Below, piece by piece: positions 3,143-63,993 of a stretch of DNA of 64,000 nucleotides (position 1 is the first letter of the stretch; the number at the start of each line of letters is the position of its first letter). Origin of the DNA: an uncultured Collinsella sp. (GTDB lineage Bacteria > Actinomycetota > Coriobacteriia > Coriobacteriales > Coriobacteriaceae); the NCBI GenBank assembly GCA_934655755.1, contig CAKUHA010000002.1, positions 62,001 through 126,000 on the forward strand, read 5' to 3'. The notes under the pieces are model-generated. The model did no database searches and was not told the origin of the DNA. It worked only from the letters and a program-made list of their open reading frames with translations. The position numbers were made by a program, and so were the translations under genes.

Positions 3143-5959
3143 ATGGTTGTTAATAGCATGATTCGGTTGAACGACAGGATGGATGGTCCAAGCGTGAGTC
3201 TCGGCAGCAAACTATCCGATGCAAAGGTTTCCTTTGCGATCTTTAAACGCGACATCAAGCGATTGCTCGTGAACCCCGTTGCCCTGGTGGTTACTCTGGG
3301 CGTGTGCGTTATTCCCTCGTTGTATGCCTGGTACAACATCGTGGCCAACTGGGATCCGTACGGAAATACCCAGGGCATCAAAATCGCTATCGCCAACAAT
3401 GACCAGGGAACTCAAAACGACTTGGTGGGCGAGCTCAATGCAGGCGATAAGGTGGTCGATCAGCTCAAGGAGAACGACCAGCTCGGCTGGACCTTCGTTG
3501 ACTCGGCGGCCGATGCCAAAGAGGGCGTCGAGAGCGGCGAGTACTATGCTGCCATCGTGATCCCCAAGAACTTCTCCGACAATCTCGTCTCGATGCTCGA
3601 CGGCAATTACCATCAGCCCAAGCTCACCTATTACGTCAACGAGAAAAAGAGCGCCATTGCGCCCAAGGTCACCGATACCGGTGCCAACACCATCGAGGAG
3701 CAGATCAACTCGGAGTTTGTCTCCACGGTGGGCGAGACCGTCGCGGGTATTGCCAAAGATGCTGGCATCGACCTTAAAGACAAGGCAACCCAGACCCAGG
3801 ATTCGCTGGCGGGCTCGGTGTCCGAGGCGTCTGATACCCTGGGCGAAGTGCGTGATTCCATCGGCGACATGAACACCGCCATCGACAAGACGAGCAGCTC
3901 GATTGCTTCGGCCGATGCTGCGTTGGCGGGCCTGCAGGGACAGGCGCCTTCGCTAACGCAGGCAATCGCTCAGGGTAATGATCTGCTGGGCGAAGCTCGT
4001 ACCACGGCTGGCAAGTCCATCACCTCGCTCTCCAAGGCGCTCTCGGAAGGCAGCCTTGCGCTAACCAAGACATCGGCCTCCGCGAACGCTGCCATCGGCA
4101 AGCTGACGGGCACGGTCACATCTACGACCACCCGCATCGACAACTCGCTCGAGTCTCTCCAGGCAACGATCGATCACAACACCGCAGTTATCGGCCACCT
4201 GCAGATTCTTGCCGGCGATACCTCGACGGGATCGGATCGGATCGACGCACTGATCGCCTCGACGATCGATACGCTCAAGAAGCAGAACGACCAGCTGCAG
4301 AGTATCAAGAACAGTCTGTCCGCACAGTCGAGCGCCATGGCAAAGGACGCTACGGCAATCTCGAACGCGAGCAACGCACTCAACGCGGCAATTCAGACCG
4401 GTACGGCTAACCTCGGTCAGGCTCAGGCCGATCTGGGGCAGAACGCACTGCCGAAGGCTTCGAGCGCGCTTGACTCCTTTGCCGCCGTTTCGGGCGATTT
4501 GACCGGCATTGTGTCGGGTATGACCCCCACGATAGCGAGCGCGCGCGGCACGCTGGCGCAGCTCGACGCCACGCTCAAGCAGGCAAAGACCACGCTGTCC
4601 CAAACCGACACCTCCCTTGCCAAGGTTCAGGACAAGCTCGCGACCGCCGCCAATGACATTGCGGCGCTGCAGACCTCTGAGTCTATGGGCGAGTTAGCCG
4701 ACCTCATGGACGTCGACGTCAATGACGTGGCAGATTTCATGGCATCTCCGGTTGAGCTGACGTCCAAGTCAATCTATCCGGTCAAGAGCTTTGGCTCGGG
4801 CATCGCTCCCTTCTACACCAATCTGGCGCTGTGGGTAGGCGGCTATGTGCTCATCGCTATCTACAAACTCGAGGTCGACCGCGAGGGCATCGGTAGCTTT
4901 ACGGCGCGTCAGGGCTACTTTGGCCGCTGGCTGCTGCTGGTGATCCTGGGCGCGTTCCAGGCCATTATCGTTACGGTGGGCGACCTGGTCATTGGCGTTC
5001 AGTGCGTCAATCCGCTGCTCTTTGTGCTGGGCGGCATCGCTATCTCGTTCACCTACGTCAACATCATCTATGCGTTGTCCACCACGTTTAAGCATATCGG
5101 TAAGGCAATTGGCGTCATCCTCGTCATTGTGCAGATTCCCGGCTCGTCGGGTATGTATCCCATCGAGATGATGCCCGGCTTCTTCCAGTGGCTGCACCCG
5201 CTGCTGCCCTTCACCTATGGCATCAACCTGCTGCGCGAGACCGTCGGTGGCATGTACTCGTTCAACTACCTGTTCAACCTGTGCATCCTGGGCGTGTTCC
5301 TTATCACCGCGCTCTTTATCGGTCTGCAGCTGCGCCCGCTGCTGCTTAACCTCAACCTGCTTTTTGACAAGCAGCTTTCCACGACGGGCCTCATGATCTG
5401 CGAGTCCAACGACCTGCCGCGTCAACGCTATTCGCTGCGCACGGCCATGCGCGTCATGCTCGATTCCGATTCGTACCGTCGCGAGCTGCTCGATCATGCG
5501 GTGGCCTTTGAGCATCGCTACCCGTATTACATTAAGGGCGGTTTCGCCGCCGTGGTAGGCGTACAGGTCCTGCTTTTTGTGCTGTCGACGGTGCTCGATA
5601 TCGACAATAACGGCAAAATCATCCTGCTTGTCATCTGGATCATTTCGGTTATCGCCATCTGCGGCTGGCTCATCAACATCGAGTACATCCGAGCGAGCCT
5701 CAATACCCAGATGCGCATCTCGGCGCTCTCGGACGAGGACCTGCGCCGCGAGATGCGCGAGCATACCGCGGCCATTCCTGCCGCCCGTCGCATGTTTGGC
5801 CTCAACGCCAGCGAACGGGGTTCTAAAGCCGAGACTCAGGCCGTCAATCAGCTCGATCATGACGACGCATGTTACGTGCCCGAGAGCGGAGACGACACGT
5901 TTGTGATGAATGGGGACAGCGCTCCGCTTGGCAAGCACTCCAAAGGAGGTGAGGCATAA
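3143..5959 (+). CDS. YhgE/Pip family membrane protein (large)
   Basis: About 938 residues. The N-terminal membrane segment and the IPSLYAWYNI...WDPYGN signature are diagnostic of YhgE/Pip (phage infection protein) proteins, an ABC-2-transporter-like family. A long Ser/Ala/Thr-rich extracytoplasmic coiled coil follows (about 180-530). The C-terminal third has about six membrane spans, with ABC-2-like PGSSGMYPIEMMP and HPLLPFTYGIN motifs. A charged cytoplasmic tail ends it. Family function is poorly known; roles in phage adsorption and export have been proposed. It directly abuts a second paralogue, so the two probably work as a heteromer. The start is uncertain: ATGs at 3110, 3143, 3158 and 3179 are in frame and none has a strong ribosome site. 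Confidence 0.85.
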   Translation: MVVNSMIRLNDRMDGPSVSLGSKLSDAKVSFAIFKRDIKRLLVNPVALVVTLGVCVIPSLYAWYNIVANWDPYGNTQGIKIAIANNDQGTQNDLVGELNAGDKVVDQLKENDQLGWTFVDSAADAKEGVESGEYYAAIVIPKNFSDNLVSMLDGNYHQPKLTYYVNEKKSAIAPKVTDTGANTIEEQINSEFVSTVGETVAGIAKDAGIDLKDKATQTQDSLAGSVSEASDTLGEVRDSIGDMNTAIDKTSSSIASADAALAGLQGQAPSLTQAIAQGNDLLGEARTTAGKSITSLSKALSEGSLALTKTSASANAAIGKLTGTVTSTTTRIDNSLESLQATIDHNTAVIGHLQILAGDTSTGSDRIDALIASTIDTLKKQNDQLQSIKNSLSAQSSAMAKDATAISNASNALNAAIQTGTANLGQAQADLGQNALPKASSALDSFAAVSGDLTGIVSGMTPTIASARGTLAQLDATLKQAKTTLSQTDTSLAKVQDKLATAANDIAALQTSESMGELADLMDVDVNDVADFMASPVELTSKSIYPVKSFGSGIAPFYTNLALWVGGYVLIAIYKLEVDREGIGSFTARQGYFGRWLLLVILGAFQAIIVTVGDLVIGVQCVNPLLFVLGGIAISFTYVNIIYALSTTFKHIGKAIGVILVIVQIPGSSGMYPIEMMPGFFQWLHPLLPFTYGINLLRETVGGMYSFNYLFNLCILGVFLITALFIGLQLRPLLLNLNLLFDKQLSTTGLMICESNDLPRQRYSLRTAMRVMLDSDSYRRELLDHAVAFEHRYPYYIKGGFAAVVGVQVLLFVLSTVLDIDNNGKIILLVIWIISVIAICGWLINIEYIRASLNTQMRISALSDEDLRREMREHTAAIPAARRMFGLNASERGSKAETQAVNQLDHDDACYVPESGDDTFVMNGDSAPLGKHSKGGEA

Positions 5960-8149
5960 ATGAAGAACATCCTGCACTTGTTTAAGCGCGACGTCCAAAA
6001 CGTGTCTCACTCCGTGATCGGTATGATCGTCGTGATGGGCCTGATCATTGTGCCGTGCCTCTATGCTTGGTTTAACATCGCCGGAAGCTGGGACCCTTAC
6101 GGCAATACCGGCAACCTTAAGATTGCGGTGGTCAACACCGACGAGGGCTACGAGAGCGACCTGATTCCTGTCGAGATCAACGTGGGCGAAAACGTGACCG
6201 CCACCCTGCGCGGCAATGAGAACTTTGATTGGGTTGTCCTCAACGACCGCGATGAAGCGATCGAGGGTGTCAAGTCGGGCGCGTACTACGCTGCCGTCGT
6301 CATCCCCAAAACGTTTAGCGCCGACATGATGACGCTCTTCTCGACCGACGTGAAGCACGCCGGCATCGAGTTCTACGAGAACCAAAAGGCCAACGCTATC
6401 GCTCAGATTGTGACCGAAAAAGGCTCGAGCGCCGTCCAGAGCCAGGTCAACGAGACCTTTACCAAGACCATTACGGCCATCGGCCTCAAGACCGTGTCCA
6501 GCCTGCTCGACTATATGAGCACCGATCAGGTGAGCAACTTTATCGCCAACCTGTCCTCGACGTTGGGCGATTCGGTCGAGGACTTGCAAGACGTTCAGGC
6601 CAGCGCGACGTCGCTTGCGGGCATTTTGAGCTCCACGTCCGATTCACTGACGTCGGCGGGCGGCATGCTCAAGCAGTCCGGAACGACCGAGGAATCGGTA
6701 AAGCAGCTCATGCAGCATGCCGAGAGCGGTATTGCCGATTCCGAGCAAGCGCTCAAGGCCGCCAGCGATGCGATCGACGCGGCGATCGATGGGAGCACGG
6801 GCTCGTTCGATAACGTTTCTACCGAGCTCGCGAAGGCGTTCGATGCCGCAAACCAGCATGTCGACCTTACGGTGTCCCAGCTCAACGATGGCGCAGCCTC
6901 GCTTAATGCGCGCGCCGACGAGATCGATGCGACGGCGGATAAACTCCGCAGCCTTGCTGACCAGGTGAGCAACGACAAGCTCAAGGCAGGGCTTGAGGAT
7001 GCGGCTGCGGAGCTTGGCAAAACTGCGACGGAGTACCGCAATAATGCCAAGGAGCTGACGAGCATCGCGACGTCGCTTACAGACAGCATGGCAAAGGTCA
7101 ATGAGTCCCGTGCCGAGGTCGACCAGGCGATCGCCGATGCCAAGGCTGACATTTCGGGTGCCAAGATTGATTACGACTCCACGTTCTCGGTTAAGGCCAA
7201 GGAGCTCAAGAAGACCATTTCGGGCGTTTTGGATTCGCTGAACGGTATCTCGGGTGACCTGGATAGCGCCGTTGCCGGTCTGACCGATGCCTCCGGCTCG
7301 CTGGCAAAGGGCCTGTCCAAGGCTGCGACGCTGGTCAATAAGGCTTCCGATCAGCTGGGCGAGGCGTCCGACAAGATCAGCGCTTTCAAGGACGAGCTCG
7401 ACGGCGCTCTGATGTCCGATGACCTCGCCACGATCAAGACGATGATCGGCAACGACCCCGAGGGCCTTGCCGCGTCGCTTTCCGGCCCCGTCGCGCTCGA
7501 CCGCAAGCCGGTCTACCCAATCCGCAACTACGGCTCCGCCATGGCGCCGTTCTACACGATTCTGTCGCTGTGGGTTGGCTCGATCGTGCTGGCGGCCATG
7601 ATGAAGGTCTCGGTTAACGATGAGCTCATCAACGAGCTCATCCCCGTGCGCCTGCACGAGATCTATCTGGGCCGTTACCTGTTCTTTGGCGGCTTGGCCC
7701 TGCTGCAGGCGACGCTCGTGTGCGCGGGCGACATCCTGTTCTTTGGCATCCAGTGCGACAACCCGCTGCAGTTTGTGCTGGCTGGCTGGGTTGCGAGCCT
7801 CGTGTTCTCGAATATCGTCTACACGCTCACGGTGTCGTTTGGCGATATCGGCAAGGCGCTCGCCGTCGTGCTGCTGGTTATGCAGGTCGGCGGTTCGGGC
7901 GGTACGTTCCCCATCGAGATGACGGGTCCCGTGTTCCAGGCGATCTATCCGTTCCTGCCGTTCACTCACGGCATCAACGCGATGCATGCCGCCATGGCCG
8001 GTGCATACCATATGGAGTACTGGGTTGAGCTGGGTATTCTGGCGAGTTATCTGATTCCGTCGCTCGCCCTGGGCGTGGTCTTCCGTCGACCGGTCATCAA
8101 AGCCAACGACTGGATCATCGAAAAGCTGGAGTCAACAAAGCTTATTTAG
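5960..8149 (+). CDS. YhgE/Pip family membrane protein (second paralogue)
   Basis: 729 residues, starting at the base after the upstream stop, with a near-perfect AAAGGAGGTGAGG ribosome site inside the end of that gene. This argues for tight co-translation. It repeats the upstream plan: N-terminal transmembrane helix, AWFNIAGSWDPYGN signature (about 29-42), long helical extracytoplasmic region (about 190-500), then six C-terminal spans with GGTFPIEM and YPFLPFTHGINAM. It is shorter because the coiled-coil region and tail are reduced. Likely an envelope complex with its neighbour; the substrate is unknown. No TetR regulator lies next to the pair, although one often does in other genomes. Confidence 0.87.
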   Translation: MKNILHLFKRDVQNVSHSVIGMIVVMGLIIVPCLYAWFNIAGSWDPYGNTGNLKIAVVNTDEGYESDLIPVEINVGENVTATLRGNENFDWVVLNDRDEAIEGVKSGAYYAAVVIPKTFSADMMTLFSTDVKHAGIEFYENQKANAIAQIVTEKGSSAVQSQVNETFTKTITAIGLKTVSSLLDYMSTDQVSNFIANLSSTLGDSVEDLQDVQASATSLAGILSSTSDSLTSAGGMLKQSGTTEESVKQLMQHAESGIADSEQALKAASDAIDAAIDGSTGSFDNVSTELAKAFDAANQHVDLTVSQLNDGAASLNARADEIDATADKLRSLADQVSNDKLKAGLEDAAAELGKTATEYRNNAKELTSIATSLTDSMAKVNESRAEVDQAIADAKADISGAKIDYDSTFSVKAKELKKTISGVLDSLNGISGDLDSAVAGLTDASGSLAKGLSKAATLVNKASDQLGEASDKISAFKDELDGALMSDDLATIKTMIGNDPEGLAASLSGPVALDRKPVYPIRNYGSAMAPFYTILSLWVGSIVLAAMMKVSVNDELINELIPVRLHEIYLGRYLFFGGLALLQATLVCAGDILFFGIQCDNPLQFVLAGWVASLVFSNIVYTLTVSFGDIGKALAVVLLVMQVGGSGGTFPIEMTGPVFQAIYPFLPFTHGINAMHAAMAGAYHMEYWVELGILASYLIPSLALGVVFRRPVIKANDWIIEKLESTKLI

Positions 8150-22668: not shown

Positions 22669-22924
22669 GACGGGCCTTTCCAAGTGCTGTTTTTTTGGGG
22701 CATATTGTCGCACGTGACGCGTACGGGAGGGTGCCGCAGTGCGTCAATTGTTTCGTCTCCGTCAAGTCTTTGGGCAGGAGCTACTTTTTCGCGGTACATC
22801 GGCACAGGTGCGATAAGATAGAACGCCATGTCTGGCTGCGCGGTTTACGCAGGCTGGGCAAATCTGTACGACGCCGCCCGGAACGACACGGGGCGGCACA
22901 GATCCATAAAGGAGGATCACTGGT

Positions 22925-59232: not shown

Positions 59233-59913
59233 CTATTTTTCAAATGCCGCGCGGATGAAGCGCTGGGCGAATAGCTTGTTGGCGACGTTGATGACGTGGC
59301 CCAAGAACAGTGCCGAGATGGCGGTCGTGACGCCAAAGCCGCCCAGGTTGTGCATAAAAACCAGCGACAGCGCGAGCGAGGCGGCGACATGCGAGCAATC
59401 GAATACGACCTTCACATCGCCAAAGCGGCGTTTGAGTTTTTCGGCAATGACCTGCACCAGACCGTCGGGCGCGTTGGGAACGACGCCCATGTTGACGACG
59501 AGGCTCACGCCAAACGCGGTGATGGCAAGCGAGAGCAGCATGGTCGCAACCTGTGCCGGTAGCGCGGTGGGGTGCAGAGGGTTAACGTTCATAAAGAAAT
59601 CGGTAAAGCCGCCGATCAGCGTTGAGAAAAAGAGCTCGAGCAAAATGCGCGGCTGAAACTCGCGGCGCAAGATGGCTGCCTGTGCGGCGATGTATGCGAC
59701 GTAGGTTGCGGTGATCCAAAAGCCGAGTGTCTTGCCGGTGAGCATGGACAGTGTCGTGGCAAAACAAGTGAGTGCGGCAACGCCCAGGCCCGATGCGGTC
59801 TGAATGCTCATGCCGAGGGCGAGCGTCGCAACACCCGCCAGATACATCAGCATTCTGATGACGGTATGGCACCAGTCGATCTTCTCGCCATTCATGATGA
59901 TGAGCGGTCGCAT
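59233..59913 (-). CDS. YczE/YyaS/YitT-like integral membrane protein
   Basis: 226 residues, about five to six membrane helices: RMLMYLAGVATLALGMSIQTASGLG, then IGGFTDFFMN and VNMGVVPNAPDGLVQ. The family (COG2364-like) is of unknown function; YczE is linked to surfactin production in Bacillus. The start is the ATG at 59913 with GAAAGGACGGG upstream; a longer reading frame would run into the structured leader. The leader on the - strand carries an RNA-like element that is duplicated in front of eda, and the region further upstream has uronate-type and other operators, so a role in uronate metabolism or transport is worth considering. Confidence 0.82.
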   Translation of the reverse strand: MRPLIIMNGEKIDWCHTVIRMLMYLAGVATLALGMSIQTASGLGVAALTCFATTLSMLTGKTLGFWITATYVAYIAAQAAILRREFQPRILLELFFSTLIGGFTDFFMNVNPLHPTALPAQVATMLLSLAITAFGVSLVVNMGVVPNAPDGLVQVIAEKLKRRFGDVKVVFDCSHVAASLALSLVFMHNLGGFGVTTAISALFLGHVINVANKLFAQRFIRAAFEK

Positions 59914-59934
59914 GTTGCTACCCGTCCTTTCGGT

Positions 59935-60058
59935 TGTGAAGAAAAAAGCTGACCTGGGCCGGCAAAAGAGGGTTATCGAAGGCACTGCTGTAAAAGCAGA
60001 AAAGCCGGCCCCACGGTCAGTCGTCTAGAAAGTGTCTCGCTGTGCCGGAATGGGACTG
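59935..60058 (-). ncRNA. Candidate structured leader RNA, copy A (upstream of YczE-like gene)
   Basis: Read on the - strand: conserved 5' block AGTCCCATTCCGGC, outer stem GACTGACC/GGTCAGC, second stem GGGCCGGC/GCCGGCCC, apical stem CTGCT/CAGCAG, and a conserved joining strand GCAGTGCCTTCGATAACC. A TTTTTT run follows the outer stem, so the fold could terminate transcription. It shares blocks and compensatory stem changes with the copy at 62752-62873. A Collinsella-1 candidate RNA motif is known from the literature; I cannot tell whether this is the same. Confidence 0.65.
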
Positions 60059-60095
60059 AAGGGCCAACGAGACGGGAGAAAAGCGAATGACAGGA

Positions 60096-60151
60096 CGTGG
60101 GCAATAGGATGCCAAGATGGTAGGGTGCGTCTTAGCATCCTATTGCCCACG
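60096..60151. repeat. Inverted repeat in the YczE-HIT intergenic region
   Basis: CGTGGGCAATAGGATGC pairs perfectly with GCATCCTATTGCCCACG over 17 bp around a 22-bp loop. Confidence 0.65.
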
Positions 60152-60156
60152 CTTAA

Positions 60157-60170
60157 CGAAATCGGTTTCG
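60157..60170. promoter_or_regulatory. Operator-like palindrome CGAAATCGGTTTCG, copy 1
   Basis: Flanked to AACGAAATCGGTTTCGTT. The same 14-mer appears inverted at 60283-60296. The near-palindromic form with a central CG suits a LacI-type protein distinct from the TGAACGTTCA binder. Confidence 0.5.
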
Positions 60171-60224
60171 TTTGAGCCTTAGTATACGCACGGGATTACT
60201 TTTGCAAAGAGAAAAATAATAAAA

Positions 60225-60240
60225 AGGTGAACGTTCACCT
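60225..60240. promoter_or_regulatory. Perfect uronate operator AGGTGAACGTTCACCT
   Basis: A 16-bp perfect palindrome of the same type as at uxaC, between the YczE-like gene (-) and the HIT gene (+). It ties at least one of the two to the uronate regulon. Confidence 0.7.
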
Positions 60241-60282
60241 AATCGCAACAACTCGTTGGCGGTATCATGGCAAGGACATACT

Positions 60283-60296
60283 CGAAACCGATTTCG
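60283..60296. promoter_or_regulatory. Operator-like palindrome CGAAACCGATTTCG, copy 2
   Basis: Exact reverse complement of the site at 60157-60170, 126 bp away centre to centre, about 110 bp before the HIT gene. Confidence 0.5.
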
Positions 60297-60404
60297 CAAC
60301 GGTTGGAGAGCGCATCGTGTGTTCGTCGTGGACTGCCGGGCAGCTTGGTCGTGCCCGTCGGTCGCATTGCGGCGAACGCTTTCACCCGGATCGAAAGGAT
60401 CACC

Positions 60405-60839
60405 ATGGAACAGCACACCGATTGCTCGTACTGCATGTGCGGGACTGACAACACGCTCGTCGATGCCTTTGGCATCCCCATGCTCGACCTGCCCGCCAGC
60501 AAGCTCATCTTGTTTAAGGAGCAGAGCCACAAGGGTCGCGTGATCGTGGCCTCCAAGCAGCACGTCGATGACATCTCCTGCATGTCCGAGGAGGACGCCG
60601 CCGCCTTTATGGCCGATGTCCGCCATGTCGCCGCCGCGCTGCACAAGGCGTTCAACCCCGACAAGATCAACTTTGGTGCTTATGGTGACACCATGCATCA
60701 TCTGCATGTGCATATCGTCCCCAAGTACAAGGACGACCCGTTTGAGTTTGGCGACGTGTTTGCCATGAACCCCGGCCGCGTCACGCTCGAGCCGGCCCAA
60801 TACGACGAGATCGCCCAGGCAATTATCGCCAACTTGTAA
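60405..60839 (+). CDS. HIT-family nucleotide-binding protein
   Basis: 144 residues. The histidine triad is MHHLHVHIVPKYKDDPFEFG (about 96-115); an N-terminal CSYCMCG may bind zinc, as in Hint-like and galactose-1-phosphate uridylyltransferase-like HIT proteins. HIT proteins hydrolyse or transfer nucleoside monophosphates. The ATG at 60405 follows GAAAGGATC; an upstream in-frame ATG at 60267 would run through the operators and is rejected. Three operator-like sites precede it, which is unusual for a housekeeping HIT gene. Confidence 0.87.
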   Translation: MEQHTDCSYCMCGTDNTLVDAFGIPMLDLPASKLILFKEQSHKGRVIVASKQHVDDISCMSEEDAAAFMADVRHVAAALHKAFNPDKINFGAYGDTMHHLHVHIVPKYKDDPFEFGDVFAMNPGRVTLEPAQYDEIAQAIIANL

Positions 60840-60848
60840 AACCCCTTC

Positions 60849-60933
60849 GCCCCCATAAGCTGCGGTGAAATACGGACTGTTTAGCGGCTCCAGCGGCGCC
60901 ATCAGTCCCTATTTCACCGCAACTTATGGGGGC
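60849..60933. repeat. AGTTGCGGTG palindromic repeat, copy 4
   Basis: GCCCCCATAAG-CTGCGGTGAAATA pairs with TATTTCACCGCAACTTATGGGGGC; the inner CGGACTG/CAGTCC extends the stem. It ends the HIT transcript region and precedes the GntR gene. Confidence 0.8.
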
Positions 60934-60994
60934 AGGGGATGCGATAGTATTACGTGGTGGTATTTGACTAACCGAGGACTTATCCGAGGGCTTT

Positions 60995-61687
60995 ATGGAA
61001 CAGCACCAGCATTATCAGAGTCTGCAAGACCAGGCATACAACGCATTGCGCTCCAAGATCATCTATGCCGAGCTCAAGCCCGGCACGCGCCTTTCGGCGA
61101 TCGGTCTGGAAAAGGAGACGGGGATCGGGCGCACGCCCATCCGCGAGTCCTTTGTGCGTCTGCGCGAGCAGGAGCTGGTGGAAACGCGCCCTAAAAGCGG
61201 TACCTATGTCTCAAAGATCAACATGGAACGTGCCGAGAACGCCTGCTTTTTGCGCGAAAAGCTCGAGAGAAGTGTGCTGATCAAATGCTGCTCGGCTGCT
61301 ACGCTCGAGCAAAAGCGCCGGCTCGAGCAGATTCTCGCCGAGTCCGAGTCGCTTGACCATAGCGAGACACGCCGCTTCTTTGACCTAGACAACCTGTTCC
61401 ACGAGACGTGCTTTGAGATTGCCGGCCGCCACATGCTGTGGGATTGGATGAAGAGCATCAACACGCATTTTGAGCGGTATAACTGGCTGCGCGCGGTGTC
61501 ACAGGATCTGGATTGGGAGCCGATTCGTCGGCAACACCGCCGAATCCTCGAGGCCATTAAGGAAGGCGACACCGATGCGGCGAGCTATCTGGCGCAGACG
61601 CATCTGCATCTGATGCCCGAAGAGCAGGGCCCGGTTATCGCCTTGCATCCCGACTACTTTGAGCTGCCCAAAGACTCGTCCATCTAA
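60995..61687 (+). CDS. GntR-family (FCD) transcriptional regulator
   Basis: 230 residues. The N-terminal winged helix is LKPGTRLSAIGLEKETGIGRTPIRESFVRLREQELVETRPKSGTYVS (about 27-73). The C-terminal all-helical FCD domain has metal-ligand-type residues in FHETCFEIAG, RRQHRRILEAI and LAQTHLH. FCD regulators commonly sense organic acids, including uronates. It is close to eda-kdgK and kduD, so control of those genes is possible. A weak ribosome site (CGAGGG) precedes the ATG. Confidence 0.87.
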   Translation: MEQHQHYQSLQDQAYNALRSKIIYAELKPGTRLSAIGLEKETGIGRTPIRESFVRLREQELVETRPKSGTYVSKINMERAENACFLREKLERSVLIKCCSAATLEQKRRLEQILAESESLDHSETRRFFDLDNLFHETCFEIAGRHMLWDWMKSINTHFERYNWLRAVSQDLDWEPIRRQHRRILEAIKEGDTDAASYLAQTHLHLMPEEQGPVIALHPDYFELPKDSSI

Positions 61688-61701
61688 TCTATCCCCTCAT
61701 A

Positions 61702-61768
61702 AGTTGCGGTGGAATAGGGATTGTTTTGCGGCCCAGGCGGCGCAAGCAGTCCCTATTTCACCGCAACT
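61702..61768. repeat. AGTTGCGGTG palindromic repeat, copy 5
   Basis: AGTTGCGGTGGAATAGGGA pairs with TCCCTATTTCACCGCAACT, including one G-T pair; the loop has TTGTTTTGCGGCC. Confidence 0.8.
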
Positions 61769-61795
61769 GCGTTGGGGCATGGTCGGGGCACAAAG

Positions 61796-61860
61796 ATGCG
61801 GTGCCGTTTGGAGGAACAGACCGGAAGCAAGGGGGTCGATTCCTCCAGACGGCACCGCAT
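61796..61860. repeat. Inverted repeat with ATGCGGTGCCGT arms
   Basis: ATGCGGTGCCGTTTGGAGGAA pairs with TTCCTCCAGACGGCACCGCAT apart from one mismatch, with a 23-bp loop. No gene overlaps it. Confidence 0.6.
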
Positions 61861-61912
61861 TGGTGTTGGCGCTCTGGATTATGTTGGAGCAAAGATTCGG
61901 CCGAGGGAAATA

Positions 61913-62011
61913 AAGCGGCTCGGGGGCGTGTCGCTTCCGTCACGTTCTATCAGCATACAAGACGGTTTCGGTTCTTGTCCGTGACGGAAACGGCACGCTT
62001 CCGAGCCGCTT
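61913..62011. repeat. 99-bp inverted repeat before the eda terminator
   Basis: AAGCGGCTCGG...TTCCGTCACG pairs with CGTGACGGAA...CCGAGCCGCTT with two short internal loops. It resembles the 16966/19396 type in scale but lacks their shared loop. The gap 61688-62061 holds only this, the two preceding repeats and a terminator. Confidence 0.6.
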
Positions 62012-62012
62012 C

Positions 62013-62046
62013 AAAAATGGGGGTGCGGTCTAGGTCGCACCCCCAC
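62013..62046 (-). terminator. Terminator of eda
   Basis: On the - strand GTGGGGGTGCGAC, loop, ACCGCACCCCCAT then TTTTTG; 16 bp after the eda stop. Confidence 0.88.
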
Positions 62047-62061
62047 GATAGAGAGCTAGGT

Positions 62062-62703
62062 CTAGGCGCGGACCTTCTTGACGACGTCCATTGCCTCGCG
62101 AGCGATCTGCTCGACCTTGGAGAAGTCGCCGTCGGCGAACAGGGCCGGCTTGACCATCCAGGTGCCACCACAGGCGATGATGGCGGAGGAGCTCAGGTAC
62201 TCCTCGACGTTAGCGGTGCTCACGCCGCCGGTGGGCATAAAGCGGTGACCGACAAACGGAGCAGCGAGGGCCTTGATGGTGTTGAGGCCGCCGTACTGGG
62301 CTGCCGGGAAGAACTTGGTGACCTTGAGGCCCAGGTTGACGGCAGCGGTGACCTCGGAGGGAGTCACGGCGCCGGGCAGCACGGGCAGGTCGATGTCGAT
62401 GCAGTGCTTGACGACGTCCTCGTTGTAGCCCGGGGAGACGATGAACTTGGCGCCGGCGGCACGGGCCTGCTCAACCTGCTCGACGGTCAGGACGGTACCG
62501 GCGCCCACGCACATCTCGGGCTCGGCATCGGCCATAGCGGCGATGCACTCGGCAGCGCAAGCGGTGCGGAAGGTGACCTCAGCGGACTTCATGCCGGCGG
62601 CCATCAGGGCGTGAGCGAGCGGAGCGGCGTCCTCGACCTTGTCGAGCACGACGACCGGCACAATGCCCAGGGACTCAAGCGTGGTGTAGAACTGATCGAA
62701 CAT
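62062..62703 (-). CDS. eda: KDPG/KHG aldolase
   Basis: 213-residue class I aldolase splitting 2-keto-3-deoxy-6-phosphogluconate into pyruvate and glyceraldehyde-3-phosphate. The catalytic Glu is in AEVTFRT, the phosphate/pyruvate loop in CVGAGTVLT, FIVSPGYNEDVV is conserved, and the Schiff-base Lys lies in KVTKFFPA; RFMPTGGVS closes the barrel. The start is the ATG at 62703 with GAAAGGAAC upstream. It follows kdgK on the same strand after 255 bp that contain a structured leader RNA candidate. Confidence 0.95.
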   Translation of the reverse strand: MFDQFYTTLESLGIVPVVVLDKVEDAAPLAHALMAAGMKSAEVTFRTACAAECIAAMADAEPEMCVGAGTVLTVEQVEQARAAGAKFIVSPGYNEDVVKHCIDIDLPVLPGAVTPSEVTAAVNLGLKVTKFFPAAQYGGLNTIKALAAPFVGHRFMPTGGVSTANVEEYLSSSAIIACGGTWMVKPALFADGDFSKVEQIAREAMDVVKKVRA

Positions 62704-62751
62704 GATGTTCCTTTCGATGTGCGGCGCGCGGGTGCGCGTAATTGCTAAAGA

Positions 62752-62873
62752 AGATTGGCCATGAGCCGGTTCCGGATTGGTTATCGGAGGCACTGCTTGG
62801 GTCACAAGCAATTTCGGAACCGGCTACGAGGCCAGTCGTGAAGGAATGCCAGGCAGAGCCGGAATGGGACTAA
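62752..62873 (-). ncRNA. Candidate structured leader RNA, copy B (between kdgK and eda)
   Basis: On the - strand: AGTCCCATTCCGGC, outer stem GACTGGCC/GGCCAATC, second stem AGCCGGTTCCG/CGGAACCGGCT, apical stem GCTTG/CAAGC, and the joining strand GCAGTGCCTCCGATAACC. Stems differ in sequence from copy A but keep pairing, and unpaired blocks are conserved. It ends about 50 bp before the eda ATG. Just upstream a GCGGGCTGCAG/CTGCAGCCCGC hairpin (62904-62941) may end the kdgK transcript. Confidence 0.65.
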
Positions 62874-62958
62874 GTGGTTCTATCTGGCCGGAGGAGTCGG
62901 GGAGCGGGCTGCAGGGGTATGGGTATGGAAAACTGCAGCCCGCGGAATGGGGAACGAA

Positions 62959-63993
62959 TTAACGGGCGACGCGGGTGCCACCGTCGGCAGCGTTTGCCAC
63001 GGCGGCGATCTCGTCGGCGGTCACCAGGTTGGAATCGCCCTTGATGGTGAGCTTGAGAATCGAGGCCGCGATAGCGTAGTTGACGGCGTCCTGCGGGTCG
63101 AAGTCGTTGATGAGGGCATGGACGAGGCCGGCGTTGAAAGCGTCGCCGGCGGCAACGCCCTCGAGCACGTGCACGTCGTGAGCAGGGGAGAACCAGTGCT
63201 CGCCGCTCTCGGCGTCATAGAGCATGCCCATCCAGATGGAGCGTTCGACGCAGGAGATGTTGCGGACGACCGAGGCGACCTTCTTGCAGCCGTACTCGGC
63301 GCAGATCTGACGGGCCATCTCGACGTAGGTGTCGCGCTCCTCGATGCCGTGGGCAAGGGAGCCGGAGACGCAGGTCATCCCGAGGCCGGCAGGTGCGTCC
63401 TCGTCGTTGGCGATGCAGATGTCGACGAGCGGCAGGAGCTCCTTCATGGTTGCCTGCGACTTCTCGGGCGACCACATCTTGCCGCGGTAGTTAACGTCGC
63501 ACACGGTGGTGATGCCCTTGGCGCGGCAAGCGGTGAGGGCATCCTTGCAGGCAGCGGCCATCTCGTCGGAGACAGCGGGCGTCACGCCAGAGAAGTAGAA
63601 GACGTCGATGCCCTTGAGGATCTCGTCCCAGTCAAAGACGTCGCGCTTGGCCATGTTGATGGCCGAGTACTTGCGGTCGTAGACGCAGCCGTTGCCGCGC
63701 TGCGAGGCGCCGACCTCAAACACGTAGGAGCCAAGACGGTCGCCCTGACGCACGACGCGCGTGGTGTCGACGTCGTAGACCTTCAGCGAGCGCAGAGCGC
63801 ACTCGCCCAGGCGGTTGGCCGGAACGACGGAAACGTAAGCGGCCTTATCGCCCTGGTAGGACAGGGAAAGCGCGGTGTTGGCCTCGGCGCCGCCGTAGCG
63901 GACGTCGAACTCGGTGGCCTGCTCAATACGCAGGTGATCTTTGGGCGAGAGCCTCATCATGATCTCGCCGAAGGTAAGAACCGTTTTACCCAT
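62959..63993 (-). CDS. kdgK: 2-dehydro-3-deoxygluconokinase
   Basis: 344-residue PfkB-family sugar kinase phosphorylating KDG to KDPG. N-terminal GGAEANTALSLSYQGD is the substrate-side PfkB signature; the catalytic loop is GVAAGDAFNAGLVHALI with the base Asp. FYFSGVTPAVSDEM is typical of KDG kinases. The start codon at 63993 lies seven bases inside the window edge, so upstream control is not visible. It supplies Eda, encoded next. Confidence 0.93.
   Translation of the reverse strand: MGKTVLTFGEIMMRLSPKDHLRIEQATEFDVRYGGAEANTALSLSYQGDKAAYVSVVPANRLGECALRSLKVYDVDTTRVVRQGDRLGSYVFEVGASQRGNGCVYDRKYSAINMAKRDVFDWDEILKGIDVFYFSGVTPAVSDEMAAACKDALTACRAKGITTVCDVNYRGKMWSPEKSQATMKELLPLVDICIANDEDAPAGLGMTCVSGSLAHGIEERDTYVEMARQICAEYGCKKVASVVRNISCVERSIWMGMLYDAESGEHWFSPAHDVHVLEGVAAGDAFNAGLVHALINDFDPQDAVNYAIAASILKLTIKGDSNLVTADEIAAVANAADGGTRVAR

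Follow-up and report, generated by a model that had tools for sequence, protein, structure and literature searches.

We analysed a stretch of 64,000 nucleotides (nt), the window, from an uncultured Collinsella sp. (GenBank assembly GCA_934655755.1, contig CAKUHA010000002.1, positions 62,001 to 126,000 of the forward strand), and found that it carries two copies of a structured leader RNA. Copy A lies directly upstream of a gene for a membrane protein of the DUF6198 family, and copy B directly upstream of eda, the gene for an aldolase acting on 2-keto-3-deoxy-6-phosphogluconate (KDPG) or 2-keto-4-hydroxyglutarate (KHG). Both copies are in sense orientation and consist of two domains, a hairpin P0 with an invariant loop and a long hairpin P1-P2-P3 with a near-invariant bulge on its 3' strand, and the RNA is under structural selection. 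A second hairpin module with a conserved loop of its own, the K hairpin, stands at the predicted starts of the transcripts of kdgK, probably the gene for 2-keto-3-deoxygluconate (KDG) kinase, and of the DUF6198 gene, beside a common LacI-type operator. These observations point to a genuine cis-regulatory leader RNA, apparently undescribed, narrow in its distribution, and part of a coherent regulon that includes the second module. The fuller interpretation that we favour, tentatively and at somewhat less than an even chance, is that this is an undescribed structured leader RNA acting in cis within a KDG/uronate regulon (kdgK-eda-DUF6198) of the Collinsella aerofaciens complex, with a metabolite slightly favoured as the factor that it binds.

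The two leaders have one RNA fold of about 140 nt in common, a richer structure than had been described in an earlier reading of the window made from the letters alone (the sequence-only reading). Alignment of 15 and then 25 copies resolved it into the 5' hairpin P0, a linker ending in GACU(G), and a single long hairpin in which P1, P2 and P3 are stacked. P0 has 12 pairs; its loop end is AGUCCCAUUCC in 25/25 copies, and its arms are GUCUCGUUG../..CAGCGAGAC in copy A and GCCAGRUAGA../..UCUGCCUGGC in copy B. The second conserved block, GUGCCUYCGAUAACC, forms a large one-sided bulge on the 3' strand between P3 and P2 and is kept in 24 of the 25 copies, with one letter different in L056. The sequence-only reading had placed two minus-strand leaders correctly, and the blocks that it saw them share are identical in both: a search of the window for CAGTGCCTNCGATAACC at up to three mismatches returned two sites, the two leaders, each with 0 mismatches. 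Shuffles gave 0.60 matches at the same tolerance, so that it is the exactness that carries the weight. The blocks had also been called unpaired, which agrees with the bulge; AGTCCCATTCC, however, proved to be the loop of a 5' hairpin that had been overlooked and that has covariation of its own. GACU is present in 24/25 copies (AACU in L056), and AGUC in the P0 loop is its complement. The first two letters of GACU are conserved even though P1 does not pair them consistently, and the two tetranucleotides may pair as a pseudoknot. Folding stability, computed on stretches lacking part of P0, gave a z-score of -0.96 for copy A and -3.56 for copy B, so stability alone would have missed copy A.

That the stems of the two leaders pair with different bases had been taken as a sign of selected RNA structure, and this is borne out in the further copies. 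Over the 25 copies (21 distinct rows), 94.1% of cells are paired, compared with 85.2% in shuffles, and displacing the 3' partners by 1-3 columns leaves only 24-44% paired. Changes on both sides of a pair occur in 84 cells (27.7 in shuffles), and the covariation score is 0.363 (0.199 in shuffles); 0/500 shuffles reached either value. Covariation was judged by five measures with 500 shuffles, and two of the five, to which we return below, did not rise above the shuffles. The rates of change provide evidence independent of covariation. Across 16 B copies the mean difference is 0.000 in the P0 loop (11 nt) and in the second block (15 nt), while the differences per site are 0.102 in the stems, 0.111 in the spacer to the ribosome site and 0.120 at the fourfold sites of eda; L041, whose eda is interrupted, is left out of this comparison. 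The stems thus drift near-neutrally but stay paired, and the unpaired blocks are frozen.

The distribution of the RNA follows that of its genes. Among 43 Collinsella genomes, leader B occurs in 16, exactly those with an eda at least 94% identical, and was not found in the other 27; leader A occurs in 7, exactly those with a DUF6198 gene at least 90% identical, and was not found in the other 36. These fixed positions support the earlier statement that each leader stands just before its gene, and orientation is likewise not random, being sense at each orthologous position. A covariance search with filters off found no leader at the eda genes of G033 (74% identity; its kinase-eda gap is about 75 bases) and G345 (69%), nor at eight more at 59-63%, one of them partial. 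In G011 (L091, L102) eda is interrupted, being in two overlapping pieces with one in-frame TGA, and leader B is intact. A search of 396 genomes of the class with stricter filters returned 16 Collinsella genomes and four weak matches (E 0.10-0.27; L047-L050). These four are not credible copies: none contains AGTCCCATTCC and the 7-mer GATAACC, present somewhere in the 3 kb of L049 and L050, is there at chance level. A search of 396 genomes of the phylum returned only G001, and one of 12 genomes with laxer filters gave only the known copies, the reverse strands of copy B, and the hairpin at the ygeY end described below. A gapped exact pattern run over the GTDB set matched 15 Collinsella stretches and three others, from Bradyrhizobiaceae, Agrobacterium and Metallosphaera, which we take as chance since they have no P0 stem at the 11-mer of the loop. 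The same pattern found nothing in viral contigs, and the copy A leader as sole query found nothing in plasmids. When 17 distant eda and DUF6198 loci were searched with filters off, the best match (L111; 22.4 bits, E 0.0006) was a GC-rich hairpin lying some 1 kb away from the gene, with no P0 loop block visible in the alignment, and another (L092; 13.6 bits) lay on the strand opposite to the gene and lacked both blocks; neither was accepted. The RNA therefore seems confined to the C. aerofaciens complex, and both its origin and its duplication seem to fall within a single genus.

The link to kdgK comes from the operator and the K hairpin. The palindrome CGAAACCGATTTCG has exactly two sites in the window, both at the promoter region of copy A, and occurs three times in the 16-kb locus of G001 (L120): two sites at the window's spacing and one (6162-6175) in the gap between a LacI-family gene (5037-6107, minus strand) and the kinase protein in a plus-strand frame (6215-7327). 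Directly after this third operator, and before kdgK, L120 has a hairpin at 6193-6250 on the plus strand. It has its loop, AAGAUGCACCCUACCGUCUU, in common with the 16-bp inverted repeat that precedes leader A (AAGACGCACCCUACCAUCUU), but the two stems are different along their whole length (GCGUUGGCACGGAGGUGC vs GCGUGGGCAAUAGGAUGC). The K loop common to both sites is AAGAYGCACCCUACCRUCUU, with stems of 16-18 bp. With up to one mismatch allowed, the pattern AAGAYGCACCCTACCRTCTT has 23 sites in the 43 genomes. Of these, 16 precede kdgK and are always about 1.16 kb away from leader B; the other 7 precede leader A. At kdgK the stem is a near-unbroken 18 bp with both-side changes among the copies (CGGAGG/CCUCCG vs CGCAGG/CCUGCG); the A copies alone show no compensatory change in the K stem and have mismatches in 6/8. 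The operator lies upstream of the K hairpin in 10/10 distinct kdgK contexts and in 7/8 A contexts. Matches to the K pattern with 2-3 mismatches (27 of the 50 matches listed, many of them one conserved site, AAGACGCACGCTACCGTGTC) were set aside, as the six loci folded gave no long stem, and TCCCAT was not enriched in the hairpin loops of the window, occurring in 1 of 245 hairpins. Because operator and K hairpin repeat before kdgK and leader A, we place kdgK, eda and the DUF6198 gene in one regulon. No promoter-like or terminator-like site was found near leader B, which is probably co-transcribed with kdgK. The kdgK-eda message would then have the K hairpin at its start and P0-P3 before eda, and the DUF6198 message would have K and P0-P3 in tandem. 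An inverted repeat upstream of copy B, with CAUACCCAUACC in its loop, shows one C-G/U-A compensatory change and mismatches in 5/17 copies, and may be a distant relative of the K hairpin.

Table 1. Features at the two leaders, in window positions. The covariance model was built from 15 copies that include window copies A and B, so their cmsearch scores are not independent.
Feature	Position	Strand	Basis
Leader RNA copy A (P0, linker, P1-P2-P3), upstream of DUF6198 gene	59940..60076	-	cmsearch 116.6 bits, E 2e-26; covariation
Copy A hairpin P0	60034..60073	-	covarying stem
Copy A P0 loop AGUCCCAUUCC	60047..60057	-	in 25/25 copies
Copy A GACU, possible partner of P0 loop (putative pseudoknot)	60019..60022	-	
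Copy A long hairpin: P1 60015-60020/59949-59954, P2 60004-60010/59957-59963, P3 59995-59999/59985-59989	59949..60020	-	folding, covariation
Copy A conserved block GUGCCUUCGAUAACC; first G closes P3, remainder is the 3' bulge	59971..59985	-	
Leader RNA copy B (P0, linker, P1-P2-P3), between kdgK and eda	62746..62891	-	cmsearch 156.4 bits, E 4e-36
Copy B hairpin P0	62848..62888	-	covarying stem
Copy B P0 loop AGUCCCAUUCC	62861..62871	-	
Copy B GACU, possible partner of P0 loop (putative pairing)	62834..62837	-	
Copy B long hairpin: P1 62830-62835/62755-62760, P2 62815-62825/62764-62774, P3 62805-62811/62793-62799	62755..62835	-	folding, covariation
Copy B conserved block GUGCCUCCGAUAACC; first G closes P3, remainder is the 3' bulge	62779..62793	-	
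K hairpin upstream of copy A, loop GCACCCUACC inside AAGAY/RUCUU	60095..60152	-	
LacI-type operator CGAAACCGATTTCG, just before K hairpin	60157..60170	-	exact
Second exact operator CGAAACCGATTTCG	60283..60296	+	
Promoter-like site TTTGCA-16-TATACT upstream of copy A	60181..60208	-	9/12 matches; weak
Inverted repeat upstream of copy B; its loop includes CAUACCCAUACC and resembles GCACCCUACC only loosely; uncertain member	62904..62943	-	
YczE-like membrane protein gene (DUF6198) behind copy A	59233..59928	-	Pfam PF19700 53.5 bits; NCBIfam YczE only below cut-off
eda, KDPG/KHG aldolase	62062..62703	-	Pfam PF01081 223 bits; TIGR01182 over cut-off
PfkB-family sugar kinase gene, probably KDG kinase (kdgK), upstream of copy B	62959..63993	-	Pfam PF00294

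The minus-strand order is kdgK, leader B, eda and, 2 kb on, leader A with the DUF6198 gene; between eda and leader A the plus strand encodes a GntR/FCD regulator and a HIT protein. The best NCBIfam match of kdgK is the kinase part of a KHG/KDPG aldolase-sugar kinase fusion, below cut-off. The same window holds uxaC, an altronate/galactarate dehydratase gene and a pectinesterase gene, and this is therefore a pectin/uronate catabolic neighbourhood. In the relative G033 (L121 5584-7337, minus strand) an inositol-type cluster contains an iolC-like gene whose end is overlapped by the DUF6198 homologue, an overlap that suggests a role for this membrane family in sugar-acid or inositol catabolism. 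Long imperfect palindromes of the GTTGCGGTGAAATAGGGACTG type, resembling repetitive extragenic palindromes, were seen by eye near both leaders (about 60850-60930 and 61700-61775). Far from them, at 22830-22913 on the plus strand, is an aspS RNA (RF02930, 76 bits), the only match to Rfam in the window at gathering score.

The P0 loop is not limited to the leaders. Its 11-mer has 74 exact sites in the 43 Collinsella genomes, whereas the reversed control has 8. Of the 74, 23 are leader copies, 21 belong to one place (site N), 18 to another (site Q), and 12 lie elsewhere. Site Q lies where a ygeY-like M20 peptidase gene ends, and downstream of it is a carbamoyltransferase gene (ygeW-like; both names are presumed from resemblance) (L117 1262-1299, plus strand; orthologues L185-L203). 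There the loop contains the stop codon TAG, and the stem closes exactly where that of P0 does and runs for 12 bp without a break; 0.05% of random window positions have a stem as long. Of the 19 genomes whose gene is 100% identical, 18 have the exact site and one differs from it at a single loop letter; the site was absent at the seven orthologues of 86-88% identity that were examined. Site N lies upstream of ndk on the opposite strand (L127 1277-1314, minus strand); it reads AGTCCCATTCCGGCAC, with 16 nt identical to copy A, keeps the 11-mer in 21 genomes, and has a 5-bp stem, which 8% of random positions equal or exceed. The complement of this sequence would be present in the ndk mRNA. Among the 12 other sites, L150 also has 5 bp and the rest at most 3. 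The measure used counts unbroken pairs next to the loop, and by it the interrupted stems of the leaders themselves score only 3 and 2. Site Q supports a modular hairpin and site N does so weakly; both were found post hoc. A separate hairpin lies in the same intergenic region before the ygeW-like gene, with a conserved loop, CCCAUGCUU, and differing stems, at 10 of 11 loci (L204, L205, L206, L207, L208, L210 and, in C. aerofaciens, L185, L186, L194 and L199; not L209). It had no Rfam match in the four loci scanned (L117, L204, L206, L207) and looks like another undescribed structured RNA.

How the leader might act can be sketched. The P0 loop would dock on the downstream domain through AGUC and GACU and would form, with the bulge, a binding site; the factor bound there may be a pathway metabolite, KDPG or KDG, slightly likelier than a protein or small RNA. 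Binding would tune the gene just downstream through control of translation, Rho-dependent termination or processing, and not through a conserved intrinsic terminator, and the KDPG aldolase and the membrane protein would thereby be matched to the flux made by the kinase. KDPG, the product of the kinase, is toxic on accumulation. A sensor is plausible on these sequence grounds: the RNA is aptamer-like in combining covarying stems with conserved unpaired nucleotides, and it occupies a leader position in sense orientation before functionally related genes, at two loci only. A riboswitch for a uronate-pathway metabolite, which the sequence-only reading had proposed, would gain from the operator and 5' hairpin common to kdgK and from the position of leader B between the kinase and the KDPG aldolase. 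Several results weigh on the other side. There are only two independent P0-P3 loci, in one species complex. Most double changes reflect the split between A (7 distinct rows) and B, together with sub-lineages of B, so that independent events are few, and the two covariation measures that did not exceed the shuffles are the number of double-change pairs (14 of 36; 26/500 shuffles reach 14) and of further pair types (26; 500/500 reach it). The pairs of the putative pseudoknot are near-invariant over the 25 copies, and covariation gives no support for them. Folding of 11 sequences revealed no competing structure close in energy to the best one. Finally, that the P0 loop also turns up away from the leaders tells against a uronate-pathway riboswitch, and a factor acting in trans would account at least as well for a regulon with two modules whose C-rich loops are conserved.

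Such a trans factor is the close rival of a sensor. The P0 (AGUCCCAUUCC) and K (GCACCCUACC) hairpins could be sites for an RNA-binding or antitermination protein or for a small RNA, with no small molecule sensed by the RNA, and we regard this as possible, with about one chance in three. The excess of P0-loop 11-mers over the reversed control, the P0-like closing stem at the ygeY-like gene end, and a K loop kept while its stem differs all speak for it, and the K hairpin shared with kdgK moved a little weight to it from the interpretation that we favour. Model R1, however, detected neither P1-P3 nor the bulge over that length at the ygeY and ndk sites, the ndk site is antisense to its gene and has a short stem matched by L150 and by about 8% of random positions, and a factor that reads only a loop leaves unexplained why the bulge is just as conserved. 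At the other extreme of specificity, the RNA might be a new KDPG (or KDG) riboswitch class in gut Collinsella, matching the KDPG aldolase and a YczE-type protein to uronate flux within an RNA regulon whose portable P0 and K hairpins mark the kdgK, eda and DUF6198 messages, with P0 re-used at the ygeY end; to our knowledge no riboswitch class for KDPG or KDG exists, and we consider this full version unlikely. Slightly more improbable still is an element of mRNA stability or processing, in which the hairpins keep kdgK and eda apart and either shield or expose message 5' ends. The intercistronic position of leader B with no promoter- or terminator-like site found nearby, the strength of the hairpins, and the K hairpin standing where the kdgK and DUF6198 messages are predicted to start would suit it, but a protective hairpin needs neither conserved loops nor a bulge, and P0-P3 of copy A is not intercistronic. 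As for a DNA-level repeat or mobile palindrome with no RNA function, two copies a few kb apart in one genus would be expected of it; the fixed orthologous positions in 16 and 7 genomes, the constant sense orientation, the compensatory stem changes and the lack of matches to the copy A leader in plasmids and to the gapped pattern in viral contigs leave it with hardly any credit.

Two further proposals concern the output. In a classical attenuator, P1/P2 would be an intrinsic terminator and the 5' CCGGC block would pair with its 3' arm as antiterminator, as the sequence-only reading had suggested. The window's copy A does have CTTTTTT after P1, and the alternative helix, formed by the 3' strand of P0 with that of P2, keeps 8-9 of its 9 pairs in 25/25 copies, is the best register tested (mean 8.56 vs 7.24 for the next), has both-side changes at 5/9 pairs, and in copy A covers positions that are unpaired in P2. 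Two of its five measures are not above shuffles (142/500 and 450/500 reach them). Its conservation is suggestive of a switch, but forcing the helix costs 12-24 kcal/mol relative to the best fold in the 11 sequences folded, and a plain equilibrium switch is therefore unlikely. The run of six T residues that had been singled out after copy A is not conserved either: the A copies have CTTTTTTC, CCTTTTC, CTTTTTC, TTTTTTC, CCCAATTCC or ACATTTC after P1, the tract is broken in L054 (GGTCAGCCCAATTCC) and L057 (GGTCAGACATTTC), and B copies have no U-tract. A stem with a U-tract conserved in the orthologues was thus not found, and a terminator scan makes no call at copy A. The classical attenuator built on the proposed pairing is doubtful in the extreme. 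Leader-peptide attenuation or translational coupling at copy A, through a 37-codon open reading frame (ORF) ending in the linker, is less credible again. The ORF is intact at 37 codons in 7/8 A copies, with proportions of nonsynonymous and synonymous differences (pN and pS) of 0.068 and 0.128. It is shortened in L057, however; its AGG abuts the ATG, too close for a ribosome site; and it spans the K hairpin, whose pairing accounts for the constraint. A short ORF with a ribosome site is not present in both copies, being seen in copy A only, and by eye the corresponding frame of copy B has no ATG, GTG or TTG. Nor is the frame of the second block relative to the downstream ATG constant: the two are in frame in both window copies but in only 7/25 copies overall, and an in-frame N-terminal extension was rejected.

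Neither leader matches a family of Rfam 15 at gathering score; at E<=10 there are only scores of up to 14.4 bits. The only match in the G001 locus L120 is MIR6143, on the other strand of the kdgK K hairpin, at 31.1 bits against a cut-off of 75. The sequence-only reading had raised the possibility that the leader is Collinsella-1 (RF01700; gathering score 35 bits), which does not fit: RF01700 matches neither leader even at E<=10, and it scores over cut-off in 4/6 genomes at places other than the leaders. Collinsella-1 is like the present RNA in being a candidate structured RNA of the same organisms and of similar size (a model of 196 positions), and is marked in Weinberg et al. (2010, PMC2864571) as probably not cis-regulatory. 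Among the matches listed from the open-access literature none describes the leader, the supplementary candidate lists (notably those of PMC8040213) lying outside the search, so an earlier unlabelled prediction is possible. Among the candidate structured RNAs that PMC8040213 describes from human microbiomes is a 51-bp Collinsella candidate, HMP2_254, which is also upstream of a gene; it lies before L7/L12, unlike the leaders described here.

If the favoured interpretation is right, a common human gut genus gains an undescribed leader RNA and a second hairpin module. Leader B separates the gene of the KDPG-producing kinase from that of the aldolase that consumes KDPG, a place at which a KDPG sensor would be useful, and the paralogous pair eases ligand searches and mutational tests. 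The uncharacterised DUF6198/YczE-like membrane family would also be tied to sugar-acid metabolism, through the kdgK regulon here and the iolC-like overlap in G033. The hairpins recognised through their loops by regulators of processive antitermination or by RNA-binding regulators, such as the targets of LoaP or CsrA, may be compared with P0 and K as recurrent leader hairpins with conserved loops and free stems; the loop letters are different. Metabolite riboswitches differ in that the leader here has no conserved expression platform, a candidate ligand only, and a range of one species complex; they resemble it in being compact 5' leaders with conserved unpaired blocks set in covarying stems, before genes of one pathway.

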